From assembly GCA_016186425.1 (NCBI GenBank), contig JACPLR010000017.1, positions 1 to 47,348 of the forward strand: a DNA stretch of 47,348 nucleotides, given 5' to 3'. The position numbers and the translations under genes were made by a program. The notes below the pieces were generated by a model that was not told where the DNA came from, ran no database searches, and saw only the letters and a list, made by a program, of their open reading frames with translations. Position 1 is the stretch's first letter. Every line of letters starts with the position of its first letter. The stretch is from Candidatus Pacearchaeota archaeon. GTDB lineage: Archaea > Nanobdellota > Nanobdellia > Pacearchaeales > GW2011-AR1. Of the stretch, positions 3,632 to 40,354 are shown one piece after another.

Positions 3632-4270
3632 ATGAAAACTGAACAATTATTAAAAGAACTTGAAGGCATTAAAACAATTAAGATAATCCAGGACAGGTTT
3701 AATATAGACAGGGCTAGAGCAATTTACCTTGTGTATCGACTTAGAAAAAGGGGGTATGTGAAGACAAAGTATGCTTCTGATAAGATGAGGGTCTATTACA
3801 TTAATAAAGCAAACAAATTAGAGGGAACTAGTTATATTGAAATTATAAACAAATATGCTCCTACAGCTGGAATAAAATTAGCTGATTATGGAGATTATAT
3901 AATTTACGGCAAAATTCCTAGCATTGAAGAAACACTTATTTATGCAATAAAACGTAGAAGTGTGAGATATGTTATAGCTTGCTTGTCATTATACAGGCAA
4001 ATAAAGGATTGGAGTCATTTGTAAAAAAAAAAAAAAAAAGAGAATTTAATTAGAGAGATTGCAGCACTATATGATATTGCAAGGCTTATAATTCCTAAAA
4101 CAAGAAAAATGCCAAAAAGATTCAAAAATCTTGCAATGCCGAAAAAGGGAGATAAATATAAATATATTATTGGAAAATTTGACTCAAGGGATTTTAAAGA
4201 TATTGAAAAAAAGTGGAGGGTTTATATTCCATTAAACTGGGCAGATTTGGAGGAATATAAATATCAATAA
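3632..4270 (+). pseudogene. AbiEi-like winged-helix antitoxin, interrupted by an in-frame stop next to a 17-A tract
   Basis: The N-terminal part (130 codons) has a winged helix-turn-helix (residues 1-55, basic recognition region RARAIYLVYRLRKRGYV) and a second domain resembling the AbiEi-type antitoxin of nucleotidyltransferase toxin-antitoxin pairs. It stops at TAA 4022-4024, immediately before 17 consecutive A (4023-4039). The same frame stays open beyond that for 76 more codons (from GAG 4040 to TAA 4268), ending one base before the nucleotidyltransferase gene. The original protein was therefore probably about 212 residues. Explanations are a nonsense mutation, readthrough, or an assembly error at the homopolymer, although the stop itself precedes the A tract. 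If only residues 1-130 are made, the DNA-binding half is intact and the C-terminal half is lost. Confidence 0.7.
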
Positions 4271-4271
4271 A

Positions 4272-4952
4272 ATGACAACAATAGAAATGCAACAAAAACT
4301 CTTTCTTGATTTGGCGAGGGTGATAAATAAAAAAATTATAGTTTATGCTATTGGCGGAACAGCTATGATGTTTTTAGGGCTGAAACCCAACACAAATGAT
4401 ATAGACTTGGTTTTTATGGATGAAAAAGACAGGAACCTCTTTAAAGAAACTGCTAAATCACTTGGATATAAAGAATCCAATGCCCAGGTAGTATATGGGG
4501 GTAAGCCAAATAAACCTATCATGATAAGTTTAGAAGACGCAAGACTTGATTTATTTTTATTAGAGGTAATTAATACGAGATTCTCTGAATCTATGGTAGC
4601 GAGAGCATCACAAATTCATCAATTTGACGAAAATTTAATAATAAAAATCGCAGATATTCATGATATAATAATTATGAAATGTGCTACTGGCAGGGCTAAG
4701 GATGAAGAGGATATAGTGAGTATTTTAAAAAACGCTAATGTTAATTGGGATATTTTAATTAGTGAAGCTGAAAACCAAGTTAGTTTAGGGAATGAAATTG
4801 CTATTCTTGGATTAGGAAATGTTTTTGAGACTTTAAATAATAAAAATAAAGCAATTATCCCAAAACAGGTCTTAGACAGGCTTTGGAGCTTGCTGAACAG
4901 GCAGGTAAAACAGGTTGATAAAAAAGATAAAAGGAAGAAAAAGGGAAATTAA
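4272..4952 (+). CDS. Nucleotidyltransferase of an AbiEii/DUF6036-like toxin-antitoxin pair
   Basis: A 226-residue protein of the polymerase-beta nucleotidyltransferase superfamily: GGTAMMFLG followed by NDIDLVF (about 28-48) gives the GG-x(n)-DxD metal-binding core, and a third acidic residue is plausible in LDLFLLEV. Family members paired with winged-helix antitoxins transfer nucleotides to tRNA ends or to partner proteins. Its gene starts one base after the interrupted antitoxin frame, the usual antitoxin-then-toxin order. A lysine-rich C terminus (about 205-226) may bind nucleic acid. If the antitoxin is truly broken, the enzyme may be inactive, differently controlled or domesticated. Confidence 0.8.
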   Translation: MTTIEMQQKLFLDLARVINKKIIVYAIGGTAMMFLGLKPNTNDIDLVFMDEKDRNLFKETAKSLGYKESNAQVVYGGKPNKPIMISLEDARLDLFLLEVINTRFSESMVARASQIHQFDENLIIKIADIHDIIIMKCATGRAKDEEDIVSILKNANVNWDILISEAENQVSLGNEIAILGLGNVFETLNNKNKAIIPKQVLDRLWSLLNRQVKQVDKKDKRKKKGN

Positions 4953-5042
4953 AAGTATTAATAAACAATTTATTAAATATATCATTAATATGAGATACTT
5001 TAATTTAACCTGCTATTAAATTATGTTAAATAATAAAAGACA

Positions 5043-5112
5043 CCTAGGGTTTCTTTTATGAAGCTTCCTCTTAAAATACCTAGGTTCTCTTTATGAGCTC
5101 TCCTTAAAAATG
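5043..5112 (+). repeat. Family A 33-36-bp tandem repeat, two units
   Basis: Two direct units begin with CCTAGG at 5043 and 5079 (period 36), each followed by GGTT-type, TTATGA and CTCCTTAAAA-like blocks. Related units occur near 15777, 17712, 18305 and 41342. It lies in the 331-base gap between the nucleotidyltransferase gene and the minus-strand gene at 5284; the first 80 bases of that gap are featureless AT-rich DNA. Confidence 0.6.
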
Positions 5113-5172: not shown

Positions 5173-5262
5173 AATATACAACTTTAGAGCGGTTTGCAAT
5201 TAATAAAAATAAACAATCGGCCAGTAACTCTTTGATTGATTAAACTCTTGCTTTCAAAATCT

Positions 5263-5280
5263 AAGCGCCTTCGGGCGCTT
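5263..5280 (-). other. GC-rich 7-bp stem with 4-nt loop just after a gene's stop codon; candidate DGR stem-loop or terminator
   Basis: AAGCGCC (5263-5269), 4-nt loop, GGCGCTT (5274-5280): a perfect hairpin, very GC-rich for this genome. On the minus strand it begins 3 bases after the TGA (5284-5286) of the gene at 5284-5982. DGRs carry such a GC-rich stem with a 4-nt loop a few bases downstream of the variable region, where it supports mutagenic homing. A conventional terminator is the alternative. Confidence 0.65.
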
Positions 5281-5283
5281 ACT

Positions 5284-5982
5284 TCAACGCACCCCACGAA
5301 CCCCACTGTCGAAATGAAGGAACCAGTTGCTGCCATTAAGCTCAGACCTGTTGTCAAGCCTGTTGAACCACAACTGACTAGCATGATCTCCAATTTTATC
5401 AGTATATTCTTGTTTATCTAATTTAATAGAGATATCCTTAATTTCAAATCTAGAATTTAATAAAAAATCTCCATAATTTTGAGCTCTTTTACTTTTTTCA
5501 GCATCTGTTCCTTTTTCTCCTCCAAAAAACCAAAGCCCGTATTTATCAGAACCTAAAGAATCTGTAGGCATTTTTATGAGGCCACCTTTATCTAAATCAG
5601 AGTTTTTAACTTTTAATCCTTCTTCTCTTCCTTTTTCAATATCTTCTTTTTCTAAACTAGTATATTCTCCTGTTTTATGAGCTTCAGTTGCTTCTCTCGG
5701 ATGCAAGTATGGCAATCCTGTTCTTAAAAGACGTGTATTGTCTCTTCTAAGATATAAAGGCCCTTCTTTAACCCAATTGCCATTATTAGAGCAAAAAGCA
5801 TTTTCTCCTTCCTGAATTCTCAATCTAGCATTTTCGTCTGCAGAAGGAATATAAAATCCTTCAATTTCTATTAACTCTTTTCCTGCATCAAAAGGAGCTT
5901 CATAACATATAGAAGCTAAAGTAATAACTCTTGGAATTACTTGATCTACTAATTTATATTGAGTTTGAGTTGCTGTTTCCAT
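5284..5982 (-). CDS. Probable diversity-generating retroelement target (variable) protein
   Basis: A 232-residue protein with no signal peptide. The first ~195 codons use the AT-rich codons of the genome. The last ~30 codons (about 5287-5376) switch abruptly to AAC, GAC, TTC, AGG, GGC and AGC and encode a W/N/R/D-rich segment ending SGVRGVR. The end is a G/C-rich block followed by the hairpin at 5263-5280. A C-terminal segment rich in AAC codons, a G/C-only end and a GC hairpin a few bases past the stop is the layout of DGR variable regions, and proteins ending in RLDNRS...GVRGVR are familiar to me from DPANN/CPR genomes, where DGRs are common. The C terminus may form a C-type-lectin-like ligand-binding fold. 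No reverse transcriptase or template repeat is in the window, so it would be a remote target. Confidence 0.6.
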   Translation of the reverse strand: METATQTQYKLVDQVIPRVITLASICYEAPFDAGKELIEIEGFYIPSADENARLRIQEGENAFCSNNGNWVKEGPLYLRRDNTRLLRTGLPYLHPREATEAHKTGEYTSLEKEDIEKGREEGLKVKNSDLDKGGLIKMPTDSLGSDKYGLWFFGGEKGTDAEKSKRAQNYGDFLLNSRFEIKDISIKLDKQEYTDKIGDHASQLWFNRLDNRSELNGSNWFLHFDSGVRGVR

Positions 5983-28319: not shown

Positions 28320-28997
28320 TTATATCTCTCTAAGCTTAATTAAAGTGTCTAAAGAAGCTAATTTCTTAAGATCTTGAGATATATGGAGAAGCACTTTCTT
28401 GTTATTAACCTTTTCTTTCTCAAGAGGAACACCTTTAGCTATAATCCTTTGAATGTAGTCCCTAATTGAACTTTCAGAAAGATTTAGATGAGAGGATAGT
28501 AAATGATAATCTACGAGAAATCCCTGGTCTTCTAGCTGATAAATAAAAGAGAAAACAAGCATTTCCTGGTTGGTAAGATGTTTGAATTGAAGGATTGTCT
28601 CTTTTTTAAGAGCGTCTAATTGGCTTAAAATTAGGGATGGATTAGAAGAATAGATGTGTCTGTCTGTCTGTTGGTTTGTCTGTCTGTCTGTCGAAACCCC
28701 CTTATTTCCTATGGAATTTAAGGTATTTTGGCTTTTTAAGCCTTGAAAATGGTATTTATCTGTCGAAGTGTCTGTCGAATTACCAGAATGTGTCTGATTT
28801 ATCTGTCGAAGTGTCTGTTGGTCTGTCTGTCTAAAATCATGATTTTTTTCTGAAATATTATAATTATTTTTAACAGAAAAAAGAGCTAGAATTGAGTTTT
28901 GGATTTCTCCAAGTTCTTTATTTATATTTGAAATTTCCTGTTTAAGAAGAGTTATATCCTCTTTAACTTTCTGAAATGCTTCTTTAACCTGATCCAT
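28320..28997 (-). CDS. Coiled-coil/winged-helix DNA-binding protein, second paralogue
   Basis: A 225-residue protein with the same plan as 27231-27878: coiled coil (about 1-40, VKEDITLLKQEISNINKEL), a low-complexity linker of TDRQT/TDQQT repeats (about 55-115), and a C-terminal winged helix (about 140-210, LTNQEMLVFSFIYQLEDQG then LSESSIRDYIQRIIAKG). The linker DNA is made of CGACAGACA-type repeats, different from the AAACAG sites of the first gene. No such sites appear upstream of its start. Likely another site-specific DNA-binding factor of the same family with different specificity; function inferred only from architecture and the nearby origin. Confidence 0.72.
   Translation of the reverse strand: MDQVKEAFQKVKEDITLLKQEISNINKELGEIQNSILALFSVKNNYNISEKNHDFRQTDQQTLRQINQTHSGNSTDTSTDKYHFQGLKSQNTLNSIGNKGVSTDRQTNQQTDRHIYSSNPSLILSQLDALKKETILQFKHLTNQEMLVFSFIYQLEDQGFLVDYHLLSSHLNLSESSIRDYIQRIIAKGVPLEKEKVNNKKVLLHISQDLKKLASLDTLIKLREI
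28655..28835. repeat. Intragenic CGACAGACA repeat cluster
   Basis: Read on the minus (coding) strand: four TTCGACAGA units, two AACAGACA units and runs of AGACAGAC. Some are arranged as AACAGACACTTCGACAGATA and its near copy, giving the TDRQT/STDTSTDK-like linker. Only this gene carries them in the parts of the window I compared. Confidence 0.65.
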
Positions 28998-29532: not shown

Positions 29533-30384
29533 ATGAGAAGTTTAGTATTATTCGATTTACATTATCAACACAACAATCCAATATCTAAGACAAAACTTGA
29601 TAAAGTAGCAGGAATTGAAGGAGATTTTGATAGTCTAATTTTAGGAGGAGATAATGCTGAATTATCGACTGGATTGCAAAATCATAGGGTTCTGTTTGAA
29701 AGATTAAGAAGAAGATTTGAATGCCCTATTGCTTTTGTATTAGGAAATCATGAACTCTGGGGCAAATTAGGAAATGTTTCTAGTTGGAGATTAATATATG
29801 ATATTTTTCCGGAGTTAGGAAAAGAGTATGGATTTACCTATTTAGAAAGTGAGAATCTTGATGTTGAAAGTTCTTCCTTTGTTGGAACATATGGTCATTT
29901 CGATTACTCTTTTCTAAGACATGACAGGGGAGTTTCTATTGAAGATTTACTTAGAGGAACATTTATTGTAGAGAGAAAGAAAATAACTTGGAAAGACAAA
30001 ATCAATATGGATTGGGAAGGAAAGAGAGATGGAGATGTTTGTGTAGAATTAGTTGATAAATTTAGTGAAAGAATTAAGATGGCTAGTGGAAAACCTATAA
30101 GCTTTAGTCATACCATTCCAAGATTAACGCTTAATGGATGGCCAGATTCTCCATCACAATACTTTATGGAGGCATATAGCGGTTCTAATTTAATAGGAGA
30201 TGTTCTACAAACAAGTGGTGGAGAGTATCATTTTTGCGGGCATACTCATGCCAGAGCGAATGATAAAATTGGAAAAACAATTGTCGTGAATGTAGGTTCT
30301 GACTACAACTTGCTTAGATATGTTATTTTAGATAGAGAAGGTGAAACTACTAAGTTAGAAGAAAGAGAAATAGTTATTAATTAA
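29533..30384 (+). CDS. Calcineurin-like metallophosphoesterase
   Basis: A 283-residue phosphoesterase with all five metal-site motifs in order: DLHY (about 8-11, DxH), GGDNAE (GDxx), GNHE, FSHT and GHTHA near the end. Substrates of the family include phosphoproteins, nucleotides and phospholipids; none can be assigned here. No signal peptide. The gene stands alone between the winged-helix genes and the origin-proximal minus-strand pair, with a TTAA repeat just after its stop. The start ATG 29533 has no clear ribosome-binding site. Confidence 0.88.
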   Translation: MRSLVLFDLHYQHNNPISKTKLDKVAGIEGDFDSLILGGDNAELSTGLQNHRVLFERLRRRFECPIAFVLGNHELWGKLGNVSSWRLIYDIFPELGKEYGFTYLESENLDVESSSFVGTYGHFDYSFLRHDRGVSIEDLLRGTFIVERKKITWKDKINMDWEGKRDGDVCVELVDKFSERIKMASGKPISFSHTIPRLTLNGWPDSPSQYFMEAYSGSNLIGDVLQTSGGEYHFCGHTHARANDKIGKTIVVNVGSDYNLLRYVILDREGETTKLEEREIVIN

Positions 30385-34910: not shown

Positions 34911-35487
34911 TATTGATGATGTTGTAGCCGATTTTACAAATCCTTTTCTTGAATTTTATAAAACCCTTACTGGGAAGACTATTTTATTTGATGATGTTTT
35001 TTCCCAAAAGTTTGAAGAAGTTGTTGGAGTTACAAGACAAGAAGCTATTAATTTTGTAAGAGGTTTTTATAAATCTGAAATGTTTGATTATTTATTGCCT
35101 ATAAATGGTTCGTCAAGCGCATTACAATATTTATCAGAAAAATATGATATAATTTTTATTACCTCAAGACATAATGAGGCAAAACAAAAAACTCCTGTCT
35201 GGTTAGCTAAACATTTTCCATTTATTAATGGAAATACAATTTATTCAGGAGATCATCAACATGGTGATAATATTGGGTTGAATAAAGCAGAAATTTGTTT
35301 AGCTGAAGGAATTCCTATTTTGATTGAGGATCATAAAGATTATTCTCTTTCTTGTGCTGAAAAAGGAATTAAAGTTATTTTATTTGACAAGCCATGGAAT
35401 AGAGATTTTGAGCATGATAATATTACAAGAGTAGCTGGTTGGAATGAAGCTTTAGATGTATTAAATGGGGGGAAAAATGCAAACTGA
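34894..35487 (+). CDS. HAD-type 5'(3')-deoxyribonucleotidase-like protein (NT5C family)
   Basis: A 197-residue HAD protein: IGIDIDDVVADFTNPFL (motif I, DIDD, nucleophile and general acid), a small cap, FITSRHNEAKQKTP (motif II Thr with Arg), Lys in NKAEICLAEG, and ILIEDHKDYSLSC (motif IV). This is the pattern of the NT5C/YqfW family of (deoxy)nucleotidases. It overlaps polB by 17 bases and polC (from ATG 35477) by 11, so it is translationally coupled to both DNA polymerase subunits. It may remove unsuitable nucleotides or balance dNTP pools; other phosphate esters cannot be ruled out. Confidence 0.85.
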   Translation: MKIGIDIDDVVADFTNPFLEFYKTLTGKTILFDDVFSQKFEEVVGVTRQEAINFVRGFYKSEMFDYLLPINGSSSALQYLSEKYDIIFITSRHNEAKQKTPVWLAKHFPFINGNTIYSGDHQHGDNIGLNKAEICLAEGIPILIEDHKDYSLSCAEKGIKVILFDKPWNRDFEHDNITRVAGWNEALDVLNGGKNAN

Positions 35488-38400
35488 AAAATATTTTCAT
35501 CATTTAGAAGAGGATATTAAGAAAAACTATGCTATTGCAAATGAGGCTAGAAGCAAGGGGCTTGACCCTGTTGGCAAAGTTGAAATTCCCCTTGCCAGAA
35601 ATCTTGCTGAAAAAGCTGTCGGACTTATTTCTACATTATATCCTCAGATAAATGATCCTCGAATTGTTAATAGAATTATTGAACTTGAAAAAGAGTATGG
35701 AAGCTTGGATGTTGCTGTGTGCTTGAAAATTGCCGAAGAAATCGCAAAAGAAAAATTCTGCAAGTTCTCAAGCCATTTAGAAGCAATTGAGGTAGGGATA
35801 AGAGTCGGGTTTGCATATACTACTCTTGGAGTTGTCAGCTCTCCAATTGAAGGATTTACTTACCTTAAACTTGGTAAAACACAAAATGAAGAAGAATATT
35901 TTACTGCTTATTTTTCTGGGCCGATAAGAAGCGCAGGAACAACCGCAAGCTGTGTTGTTTTAATGATTATTGACTATTTAAGAGAGATTTTTGGATATGC
36001 AAAATATGATCCTAGTGAAAAAGAAATAAAAAGAACATCAACAGAGTTGTATGATTTTCATGATAGAATAACTAACCTACAATATCTGCCAACTGAAGAA
36101 GAGGCAGAATTCCTTGCTGCAAACCTTCCAATACAAGTTGCCGGCGAGCCGAGCGAAAAATTAGAAGTGAGCAATTATAAAGACCTGCCAAGAGTGGACA
36201 CAAATTTTTTGAGAAGCGGGTTTTGCTTAATTATTGGGGAAGGGCTTGCACAAAAAGCTGCAAAAGCATTAAGAATTTTACGAGGATTAAGGGAAAAGGG
36301 ATTTAAATTAAGTGATTGGGATTTTTTAGAAAAATATGTTGAACTGCACAAAAAAAGAGAGTCTGGGACAAAAGACACAACACCAACTTATATTAAGGAT
36401 TTAGTTGCAGGAAGGCCGATTTTCGGACATCCTTCAAGATCAGGAGCATTTAGATTTAGATATGGAAGAAGCAGGGTTGCGGGTTTTTCTGCAGTATCTA
36501 TTCATCCAGCAACAATGGCGATTAGTGATGGTTTTTTGGCTGTAGGAACACAATTAAAAATTGAAAAACCCACAAAAGGATGTGTTATCAGCGTGTGTGA
36601 TGGCATTGATGGGCCAATTGTTAAGCTAAAAAATGGAAGTGTTGAAAGAATTAATGATTTTCAGAGAGCAAAAGAAGTTTATCATGATGTTGAAGAAATA
36701 ATTTATTTTGGAGATATTTTATTTCCGTTTGGAGATGTCGCAAACAGGAATAGTGTTTTAATAAATCCGGGATATGTTGAAGAGTGGTGGGAGTTAGAAC
36801 TTGAAAAAATAGGAAAAAAAGTTGAAAATAAATTTAATGTTAGCTTTGATGAAGCGATTAATTTTTCCAAAGAATACAGGATTCCATTACATCCAAGCTA
36901 TATTTATTATTGGACACAAATAAGTTACGAACAGCTTTTAGAATTATTAAGATGGCTTTCTTATGCAAGATTAAATAAGAAAATAATTCTGCCTTACAGC
37001 ACAATGGAAAGAGAGAAATTTAAAGAGAGCAAGAGGGCTTTGGAGCTACTTGGAATTGAGCATGATATTGGGATTGAAAATGTAATTATTAATGGGGTAA
37101 ATAGTAAGGCATTATTTGCAAATCTTGGATTTGATCTTGGATTTTTGGAGGAGGATGAAAAATTTATTGAAAATGAAGTTAATGGGTTGGCTGAAAAAAT
37201 AATTAACCAGACAGAAAGAGAGGTTTTAAGCATTATTAATTTATTTTCTGAATTTGCTATTAAAGACAAGGCAGGAGAGTTTATTGGAACAAGGATGGGA
37301 AGGCCTGAAAAAGCTAAATTAAGAAAGCTAACAGGAAGCCCGCATGTTTTATTTCCAGTAGGAGAGGAAGGTGGAAGATTTAGAAGTGTTAATGGGGCTG
37401 CTGAATTAGGATATGTAAGTGCAGAATTTCCTAGCTATTTTTGTGAAAAATGCAATCTTGAAACAATTTATTCTTTATGCGAAACTTGTGGCGGGGAAAC
37501 AAAGAAAAAATTTTATTGCCCTATTTGTAACGAGCAAATTTCAAGCGAGAAATGCGAGAAACATGGTAGAGGACAAAGCTATTACAGAAGAAGAATTGAT
37601 ATTAAAAAATATTTATCAAGTGCTGCAAAAATTCTTGGTATTGAAAATGGGCAGTTACCAACTTTAATCAAAGGTGTAAGGGGAACAAGCTCACAACATC
37701 ATTTGTTAGAACATTTGTCTAAGGGAATTTTAAGGGCTGGATTGGGTTTGAATGTGAATAAAGACGGAACAATCAGATATGATATGACAGAGCTTCCAAT
37801 CACACATTTCAAGCCAAAAGAAATTGGTACAAGCATTGAAAAATTAAAAGAAATCGGATATACAAGAGATATTTATGGCAAAGAATTAATTGATGAAGAC
37901 CAGATTCTGGAATTAATGCCTCACGATATTATTCTTCCATGCAGTGCTGATTCTGGAGATGAGAGAGCTGACGAGGTTTTTTTGCAAGGAACAAGGTTTA
38001 TTGACTTGCTTTTAGAAAAATTATACAAGCTTCCTAGGTTTTACAATGCCAAAACAAGAGAGGATTTAGTCGGACATCTAAGCGTTTGCATGGCTCCCCA
38101 TAATTGTGCGGGAGTTATATCTAGAATTATTGGTTTCTCCAAAACTCAGGGCTTATTGGCAAGCCCGTATATGCATGCGGCTATGCGAAGGGACTGCTTT
38201 GATTATAATACTTACCTACCAATCAAAAATAATGGAGACTGGAGAATTAGAAAAATTGGAGAGATTGTTGAAGAGTTAAATCCTGAAAAAATTGTGGATA
38301 ATTTTGGCACTAAAGAAAGAAAAGTAGATAGCTTCTTAACAATAGGGTTTGAAAATAAATTAAAAGAAGTTAAAATAAATAATTTTACTAAACATTTACC

Positions 38401-40354
38401 CACTTCAATGCTTGAAATTAGAACTTCTTTAGGAAAAAAGATTAAAGTTACAGAAAATCATAAATTTTTAGTTAATGGCAATAAGAAAAGAGCTTCTGAT
38501 TTAAAAATTGGAGATAAAATCCCCTTGCCAATACACATAGATATTGATTCCAGGGAGATACAAGAGATAAATCTTTTAGAATTATTAAAAGATGAGAATT
38601 TAATGGTAAGAGATATTAAGAGTATTATTAATAGATTAGATCTTACCTCAAGAGATATTATTTTAAAAAATTTAAAGATTTCTAAAAAACAATTCCAGAA
38701 TTTTAATATTAGGGATAGTTATCCTGCTAAATTTATTTTAAGATTAGATGATAAGATAAAAAAAGAGATATTTAATATTGGAAAGATATCTATTAAAAGA
38801 GATAATGTAAAAATTCCAATAATCATCAAATTTAATAACCAGTTATTAGAAGTTATAGGTTTGTATATTGCTGAAGGTCATTCAAGAAGTGTTTCAGGAA
38901 GAAAAGGATTAAATCAAGTATATATTGCTTCTGATGATAAATTTATAAGAGAGTTTGTTAAAAAAACAATAAAAGAATCTTTTAATCTTTCTCCAAGCGA
39001 AAATAAATTAGATAGGGTTACTTTTTCATCCAAGATATTATATTTGTTTTTTACTAAATTTCTAGAAGCAGGAAGCAATGCAAAAGACAAGCGAATACCT
39101 TATTTATTCTTGAATCTTCCATTGAATAAACTTGCTTGTATATTAAGGGGATATTTTGAAGGGGATGGTTCTGCTGAAAAAGGCAGGATGAAAGTAAGTT
39201 GTGATAGCATCAGTGAAGGATTATTATATGATTTGGAATTTTGTTTAGCAAGATTTGGAATTTTTTCCAAAAGATATGACTATGAAAAAGAGCCAGGACC
39301 TTTACTGAAAAATTTTTATATTAGGAAAAAAAGAGAAATTCCCAAATTTAGGATAACTAAATTAATAATAGGATCAGATTTTGTGGATAATTTTTATAAA
39401 ATTGGTTTCTTGTCTGAGAGAAAAAATAATATTCTGGAAGGCTATAAAAAGATGAATCCTTATGGTATGAAAATTCAAAAGGATGTTAATTTTGTTTATG
39501 ACCCTATTGTTTCAATAGATTCTATTGGAGAAAAAGAAAGCTATTGTTTAAATGTTAATACCGATAATCATTTAGTTGTTGGCAATTCTATTGTTACTTT
39601 TAATTGTGATGGCGACGAAGCAGCAGCAATGTTATTGCTAGATGTGCTGATTAATTTTTCAAGAGAATATCTCCCTGGACACAGGGGAGGAACACAAGAT
39701 GCTCCACTGGTTTTGAATGGCAGAATTGTTGCTGGAGAGGTTGATGATCAGATTTTAGATTTTGAAGTAGTCAATAAATATCCCCTAGAACTTTATCAGC
39801 TTGCAGAATTGAAAGAGCACTCTTCTAAAATAAAAATTGAAATGGTTAAAGACAGGATAAAAAAAGGCGAAGATCCGTTTAGGAATCTTAATTTTACACA
39901 TGAAACTAGCGATTTTAATAAAGGAGTGTTATGCAGTTCCTATAAACAACTTCCAACGATGCAGGAAAAAGTTGCAAAAGAGATGGAACTTGTTAATAAA
40001 ATTCGTGCAGTAGATGCTTCTGATGTTGCGAGATTGATTATTGAAAGGCATTTTATCAGGGATATTAGAGGCAATTTAAGAAAATTTTCACAGCAAGGTT
40101 TTAGGTGTGTTAAATGCAATTCTAAATTCAGGCGTCCTCCGCTTTCCGGTGTGTGTAGCAAGTGCAATGGAAAAATAATTTTTACAATTTCAGAAGGAGG
40201 AATTGTAAAATACCTTGAGCCGGCATTGCAGCTTGCAAATAATTATGACATTCCGGTTTATGTAAAACAAAACCTTGAATTGACAAAAAAATATATTGAA
40301 AGTATTTTCGGCAGGGAGGAAACAAAGCAGGCTGATTTGGGGAAGTGGTTTTGA
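35477..40354 (+). CDS. polC: DNA polymerase D large subunit (DP2), with intein
   Basis: Catalytic subunit of replicative PolD. ATG 35477 was chosen over ATG 35465 because GGGGGG lies 4 bases before it and family members begin MxxYFxxLExDI. The host protein after splicing is about 1155 residues, normal for DP2. It has conserved FSGPIRSAGTTAS, zinc clusters (CxxC pairs near 660-700 and CVKC/CSKC near the C terminus), the catalytic DGDE motif, and a C-terminal QADLGKWF that resembles a PCNA-interacting end. A 470-residue intein interrupts it directly before CDGDE. Paired with polB and orc1 next to the origin. Confidence 0.96.
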   Translation: MQTEKYFHHLEEDIKKNYAIANEARSKGLDPVGKVEIPLARNLAEKAVGLISTLYPQINDPRIVNRIIELEKEYGSLDVAVCLKIAEEIAKEKFCKFSSHLEAIEVGIRVGFAYTTLGVVSSPIEGFTYLKLGKTQNEEEYFTAYFSGPIRSAGTTASCVVLMIIDYLREIFGYAKYDPSEKEIKRTSTELYDFHDRITNLQYLPTEEEAEFLAANLPIQVAGEPSEKLEVSNYKDLPRVDTNFLRSGFCLIIGEGLAQKAAKALRILRGLREKGFKLSDWDFLEKYVELHKKRESGTKDTTPTYIKDLVAGRPIFGHPSRSGAFRFRYGRSRVAGFSAVSIHPATMAISDGFLAVGTQLKIEKPTKGCVISVCDGIDGPIVKLKNGSVERINDFQRAKEVYHDVEEIIYFGDILFPFGDVANRNSVLINPGYVEEWWELELEKIGKKVENKFNVSFDEAINFSKEYRIPLHPSYIYYWTQISYEQLLELLRWLSYARLNKKIILPYSTMEREKFKESKRALELLGIEHDIGIENVIINGVNSKALFANLGFDLGFLEEDEKFIENEVNGLAEKIINQTEREVLSIINLFSEFAIKDKAGEFIGTRMGRPEKAKLRKLTGSPHVLFPVGEEGGRFRSVNGAAELGYVSAEFPSYFCEKCNLETIYSLCETCGGETKKKFYCPICNEQISSEKCEKHGRGQSYYRRRIDIKKYLSSAAKILGIENGQLPTLIKGVRGTSSQHHLLEHLSKGILRAGLGLNVNKDGTIRYDMTELPITHFKPKEIGTSIEKLKEIGYTRDIYGKELIDEDQILELMPHDIILPCSADSGDERADEVFLQGTRFIDLLLEKLYKLPRFYNAKTREDLVGHLSVCMAPHNCAGVISRIIGFSKTQGLLASPYMHAAMRRDCFDYNTYLPIKNNGDWRIRKIGEIVEELNPEKIVDNFGTKERKVDSFLTIGFENKLKEVKINNFTKHLPTSMLEIRTSLGKKIKVTENHKFLVNGNKKRASDLKIGDKIPLPIHIDIDSREIQEINLLELLKDENLMVRDIKSIINRLDLTSRDIILKNLKISKKQFQNFNIRDSYPAKFILRLDDKIKKEIFNIGKISIKRDNVKIPIIIKFNNQLLEVIGLYIAEGHSRSVSGRKGLNQVYIASDDKFIREFVKKTIKESFNLSPSENKLDRVTFSSKILYLFFTKFLEAGSNAKDKRIPYLFLNLPLNKLACILRGYFEGDGSAEKGRMKVSCDSISEGLLYDLEFCLARFGIFSKRYDYEKEPGPLLKNFYIRKKREIPKFRITKLIIGSDFVDNFYKIGFLSERKNNILEGYKKMNPYGMKIQKDVNFVYDPIVSIDSIGEKESYCLNVNTDNHLVVGNSIVTFNCDGDEAAAMLLLDVLINFSREYLPGHRGGTQDAPLVLNGRIVAGEVDDQILDFEVVNKYPLELYQLAELKEHSSKIKIEMVKDRIKKGEDPFRNLNFTHETSDFNKGVLCSSYKQLPTMQEKVAKEMELVNKIRAVDASDVARLIIERHFIRDIRGNLRKFSQQGFRCVKCNSKFRRPPLSGVCSKCNGKIIFTISEGGIVKYLEPALQLANNYDIPVYVKQNLELTKKYIESIFGREETKQADLGKWF
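38195..39604 (+). mobile_element. LAGLIDADG homing-endonuclease intein in polC
   Basis: Starts at Cys (TGC 38195) in RRD|CFDYNTYL and ends at Asn (AAT 39602-39604), followed by Cys of CDGDE. Splicing block B is around TENH; the endonuclease has two LAGLIDADG-type helices, EVIGLYIAEG and CILRGYFEGDG, so it may be active. The residue before the terminal Asn is Phe, not the usual His (VTFN). The site is the catalytic DGDE of PolD, the same site used by PolII inteins of Pyrococcus. Both extein and intein frames are continuous over 470 codons, suggesting a functional intein. Confidence 0.93.

Follow-up and report, generated by a model that had tools for sequence, protein, structure and literature searches.

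The contig JACPLR010000017.1, referred to below as the window and analysed over its whole length of 47,348 bp, belongs to the assembly GCA_016186425.1 of a Candidatus Pacearchaeota archaeon (genome G000; 868,632 bp in 29 contigs, 88% complete), where it is contig C12. Near its beginning, on the minus strand, lies an open frame of 232 codons that an initial annotation, made from the letters of the sequence, had taken for a target gene resembling those of diversity-generating retroelements (DGRs). The DGR of phage BPP-1 (mtd/TR/brt) combines adenine mutagenesis from a template repeat (TR) with a motif for the initiation of mutagenic homing (IMH) and a hairpin past the variable region (VR), all parts forming a compact cis cassette. 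The window gene falls in the same mechanism class as BPP-1, differing in that its system is not such a cassette. Its VR, IMH-like end, downstream hairpin and predicted fold support its identification as the variable protein, i.e. the target, of an archaeal DGR. Positions are collected in Table 1.

Table 1. Features of the target locus, of the remote reverse transcriptase gene and of other parts of the window (window positions unless a contig is named)
Feature	Position	Strand	Basis or remark
DGR target gene, variable protein with C-type-lectin fold (AvpA-like)	5284..5982	minus	Open reading frame, homologues, AlphaFold model
Variable region, last 29 sense codons; exact 5' edge uncertain	5287..5373	minus	GC jump, G001 VR, G074 TR
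IMH core TGGGGT	5291..5296	minus	Sequence; alignment with G074 and G091 TRs, which have TGGAAT
GC hairpin, 8-bp stem, CGAA loop (G001 loop: GAA)	5262..5281	minus	Fold z = -3.85
Extra T relative to G001 (CGT GAA to CGT TGA), ends the window frame at the VR	5284..5287	minus	Pairwise and protein alignment
DGR-type reverse transcriptase, 486 aa	C19:44626-46083	minus	RVT_1 profile; own TR and VR adjoin
A17 run at the end of the open reading frame 3632-4024	4023-4039		Same-frame open stretch continues after the stop
Nucleotidyltransferase-like gene (DUF6036/DUF2204)	4272-4952		Just after the open stretch behind the A17 run
DNA polymerase II large subunit (DP2) with intein (LAGLIDADG and splicing domains) in the catalytic domain	35465-40354		

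Target gene, variable region and hairpin

The window protein was modelled with AlphaFold2 from an input of 12 homologues (mean local confidence, pLDDT, 90.1; predicted TM-score, pTM, 0.88). The top match of the model in the PDB, and the only one with an E-value below 0.001, was chain 5ioo_A, AvpA (Foldseek E 1.4e-5, probability 1.00, TM 0.60/0.66), a Nanoarchaeota DGR variable protein of C-type-lectin fold and solved structure (Handa et al. 2016, PMC5006420). Through this match the predicted fold offers the ligand-binding scaffold, usually of C-type-lectin type, on which DGR targets are built. The link to AvpA rests on structure, since a profile search of PDB sequences with the window protein found no related protein; its identity to AvpA in the structural alignment is 12%. 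Both are archaeal DGR targets with a C-terminal VR, whereas the window gene lacks an adjoining reverse transcriptase (RT) and TR and ends at the VR. Furthermore, no family match was obtained in Pfam, NCBIfam, PHROG or PADLOC, and a related-locus search of a collection of genome contigs gave a single weak clostridial match.

The late compositional shift described in the initial annotation is borne out by the 87 bp of the VR: they contain 51.7% GC, whereas the gene outside them contains 31.5% and the window as a whole 30.3%, and just 0.23% of the 87-bp blocks in the window are equally GC-rich. The terminal block encoding SGVRGVR (AGTGGGGTTCGTGGGGTGCGT) had been called G/C-only; it is really A-poor, having no A after its first base and containing T's. 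At the 3' end of the VR stands the IMH motif, and TGGGGT with its TGGAAT counterpart, seen here in the TRs of the related genomes G074 and G091, is the IMH/IMH* pair reported in DUSEL4 nanoarchaea (Paul et al. 2015, PMC4372165).

Just beyond the VR, on the minus strand, lies the hairpin TAAGCGCC-CGAA-GGCGCTTA, which begins 2 nt past the stop codon; without its outermost T-A pair it becomes the 7-bp GC stem with a 4-nt loop, 3 nt past the stop, that had been noted before. As single-stranded DNA it folds with -9.1 kcal/mol, and none of 200 shuffles folded equally well. Equivalents occur in relatives: strong ones, with a score of at least 11, come after 11 of 28 VRs and after none of the TRs, and most of the remaining VRs are followed by weaker ones. 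In G001, a genome of the same genus, and in several other homologues the frame stays open across the hairpin and adds a tail, which in G001 is about 58 codons long. The window copy carries, apart from the extra T of Table 1, a second base absent from G001, a C within the hairpin loop.

The position directly after a stop codon and the good folding would also suit an ordinary transcription terminator, the VR-like codon usage being then a matter of chance. We reject this explanation as extremely improbable. It is already contradicted by G001 and the other homologues, where the hairpin lies inside the reading frame; moreover, no run of T follows it, such hairpins come after VRs and not after TRs, and neither the AvpA fold nor the adenine-site statistics given below depend on it.

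Among the closest described parallels are partial, RT-less DGRs known from DUSEL4 Nanoarchaeota (Paul et al. 2015, PMC4372165). There, too, a target gene has its VR and cis elements while no RT adjoins it, and the TGGGGT/TGGAAT pair and a short GC hairpin are shared with the window locus. Their hairpins have GRA trinucleotide loops and are placed inside the target frame, whereas that of the window has a CGAA loop and follows the stop codon. Two readings were offered for these RT-less targets, action in trans or a fossil state (Paul et al. 2015, PMC4372165).

Reverse transcriptase, templates and adenine sites

As the initial annotation had stated, the window holds neither an RT nor a template: the RVT_1 profile had no match inside it and no template for the VR was found within it. 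The window gene is an orphan in this assembly, where no TR for its VR was found. The remote RT that had been anticipated exists, the single RVT_1 match of the assembly (E 4e-26) being a DGR-type enzyme on contig C19. It combines the RT domain with a C-terminal HTH_40 domain (residues 380-467, E 1.4e-14). Among its relatives a set of longer RTs shares this extended C-terminus, and others stop near residue 350. Of the solved structures, 8ub7 matches the sequence of the C19 enzyme best (E 6e-43); we take 8ub7 to be the RT of the Bordetella phage BPP-1 DGR, and it lacks the HTH_40 domain.

The C19 enzyme is accompanied by its own pair, TR1/VR1, with nine differences in a 70-bp stretch, all at template A's. 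Another TR/VR pair stands at the start of contig C23 (C23:120-560, locus L004) and differs at 10 A's and one other base in 70 bp; no RT was found adjoining its TR. An initial genome-wide scan for A-biased pairs returned mostly intergenic palindromic repeats, and when it was repeated with a GC filter these two were the only clear TR/VR pairs in the whole assembly. The search of the genome that the initial annotation proposed thus yielded an RT with an adjacent TR, and it did not yield a TR cognate to the window VR, which would be close to CTGTGGTTCAACAGGCTTGACAACAGGTCTGAGCTTAATGGCAACAACAGGAACC...GTGGAATA. The lack of any similar template in the genome, named in the initial annotation as a refuting outcome, is thereby borne out in part: TR1 does resemble the VR, and it was dismissed as its source on account of non-A differences and the gaps it needs. 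Two 15-bp matches also came from the template search; the one on C23 leads to the second TR/VR pair, and that on C17 has unrelated genes around it.

Homologues of the window protein are encoded in 12 of 138 related genomes. The homologue in G001 has 38% protein identity, and its VR is identical at 72 of 87 positions (83%), the near-identity extending beyond the VR through the hairpin. The 15 differing sites were compared with TRs of independent genomes, because a lone difference can always be put down to an A in a template that has not been seen; a plain test of compatibility with a template A was dropped, since every difference passes it. The TR of G074 has an A at 12 of these sites (hypergeometric p = 6.5e-5) and the TR of G091 at 11 (p = 1.7e-4), which speaks indirectly for adenine-directed change in the window VR. 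When the window VR is compared with these foreign TRs themselves, mismatches fall preferentially on A without being confined to it (for G074, 14 on A and 13 on other bases). In G040 and G091 the target homologue, TR and RT stand on one contig, and all TR-VR differences there are at A (13 A/0 other and 17 A/0 other, respectively). Over 28 TR/VR pairs from the own genome and relatives, 339 of 649 template A's (52%) had changed, compared with 13 of 1451 (0.9%) among the other bases; the latter figure is biased low because pairs were chosen for low non-A change.

These data are consistent with the following course of events. The RT would copy the TR with errors at adenines and, with the IMH motif and the hairpin as guides, the mutated cDNA would take the place of the VR, the gene's 3' end, so that the surface of the C-type-lectin domain may vary. 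Most likely a distant cassette diversifies the window gene now or did so until recently, the sole assembled DGR RT being that on C19. Such diversification in trans is plausible; the VR may still be undergoing rewriting, and any assignment of a particular RT and TR to it is a provisional one.

Several observations weigh against this picture. No TR cognate to the window VR was detected by BLAST and an A-tolerant ungapped scan in the 868,632 bp of an assembly that is 88% complete, and none was found when the G001 assembly was searched with a predicted TR; besides, the extra T after the VR and the extra C in the hairpin loop could be early decay. The target may accordingly be a fossil, whose cassette with TR and RT has since been lost in the lineage and whose VR is now frozen, a state that was one of the two readings by Paul et al. 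(2015, PMC4372165) for the RT-less nanoarchaeal targets. The absence of the cognate TR from both assemblies would fit this, as would the two extra bases, which remove the C-terminal tail and alter the hairpin loop. On the other hand, the reading frame, IMH and hairpin stem are all intact, and the VRs of the window and of G001 hardly differ outside the sites of template A's, despite the 38% protein identity. It should be added that the G001 assembly, too, is just 88% complete and that the second DGR pair sits at a contig end, so DGR loci may be under-assembled. Action in trans is favoured over the fossil state because frame, IMH and stem show no damage and the backbone of non-A positions has been conserved; the fossil state is the less probable of the two, while still deserving serious consideration.

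Simple repeats in the RT gene

Nine G's in a row occur within the C19 RT gene, at C19:45532 (locus L001, about 1800-1810), in a loop directly before GMPLGNLTSQ. The tract is the sole G/C run of nine or more in the assembly, and (GA)5 is absent genome-wide. The loop is a 13-residue insertion between RT motifs, missing from 8ub7; a predicted structure of the RT was too poor for use (pLDDT 58.6). With G9 the frame of the C19 gene is open (ON).

Related RTs, own genome included, were found in 46 of 139 close genomes, 75 of 200 genomes of the order and 113 of 371 drawn from the phylum, and many of the matches were split into two frames at this one loop. Loop repeats are seen, for example, at loci L091, L121, L144, L146, L123, L140, L242 and L245. 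The loop was aligned in 132 distinct RTs, among which 61 bear a repeat: 39 have poly-G of 6-27, 20 have (GA)n of 9-54 nt, one has poly-C and one (CT)n. Repeat-bearing genes were in frame in 17 cases, shifted by one in 20 and shifted by two in 24; the corresponding numbers for the 71 RTs without a repeat were 68, 0 and 3 (Fisher p = 2.4e-17). The out-of-frame share is inflated, as many loci were fetched because their matches were split, and in the first-fetched set 11 repeat-bearing RTs were in frame and nine out; the near-equal shares of the two shift directions are independent of this choice. A programmed -1 frameshift, hinted at by the first few loci, was set aside once both directions had appeared.

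The off-frame copies do not appear to decay. Stops elsewhere in the gene were present in one of 44 out-of-frame RTs, one of 17 in-frame RTs with a repeat and one of 68 in-frame RTs without. In an earlier set, identity to the C19 RT over the two halves was 58.8 and 61.2% for out-of-frame genes and 56.8 and 60.3% for repeat-free ones. Moreover, several cassettes with an out-of-frame RT have probably been active recently, because their TR/VR pairs differ almost only at A's (A/other: G001 17/1, G068 21/1, G028 13/0, G021 10/0, G004 14/1). In a FastTree phylogeny of the RTs, the presence of the repeat changes at least 32 times; among repeat-bearing RTs, about 17 of whose rows are ON, the ON/OFF state changes 16 times or more and is therefore hardly inherited. 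None of these loop repeats was found in the RTs of 54 viral contigs.

In the archaeal RTs, as in bacterial contingency loci with poly-G or short tandem repeat tracts (e.g. those of Campylobacter and Neisseria), a simple repeat of variable length lies in a coding region and all three frames occur; the gene here differs in being an archaeal mutagenic RT, whose switching within a population is a prediction. Replication slippage at the poly-G, (GA)n or similar tract would alternately open and break the RT frame, and may do so within populations. In this archaeal order and more widely in its class, we regard the DGR RT as likely to be a contingency locus subject to phase variation, in which slippage of the loop tract (poly-G, (GA)n, poly-C or (CT)n) would randomly toggle targeted hypermutation. 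The loop that holds the tract would be dispensable, and the targets affected may include remote orphans such as the window gene.

The frame breaks might instead stem from misassembly of simple repeats, or full-length RT might be made at any tract length through transcriptional slippage or a programmed frameshift. Tract lengths in draft assemblies can indeed be wrong by one, and the frames are read here from DNA sequence. Yet several kinds of repeat occupy one identical loop, and the two shift directions are about equally frequent (20 and 24), whereas a programmed shift should favour one. Repeat-free RTs, furthermore, are in frame in 68 of 71 cases, and the viral RTs do without such repeats. 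In our view an explanation of this sort is rather unlikely. To the reading as a whole, i.e. that the window gene is a DGR target, orphan in this assembly, and that the RTs of its lineage often carry a repeat that would switch their frame, we assign a probability of roughly 0.85.

Taken by itself, the target gene is a further example of known DGR targets. An RT with a mutational switch of its own was undescribed in the literature searched: among open-licence papers no report joined DGRs with repeat-driven phase variation, so that the novelty of the switch is provisional, nor did Paul et al. (2015, PMC4372165) yield any mention of RT-gene repeats. A mutator with a switch would be relevant to how cells contain the cost of unceasing protein hypermutation and, if true, would give an archaeal example of repeat-driven phase variation.

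Other features of the window

The poly-A17 run at 4023 was considered as a further switch and rejected, because the TAA stop there is formed by a T plus the run itself, whatever the run length. Tetranucleotide repeats of the window, (TGTC)4 at 28677 inside the open reading frame 28320-28997 and (ATTA)5 near 30376, are possible further slippage sites. Short intergenic imperfect palindromes (e.g. GGAGATGTCATAAGAAGAACCTTGGTTCTT) form a family scattered over the genome, with copies in the window at about 5040-5110 and on many other contigs.
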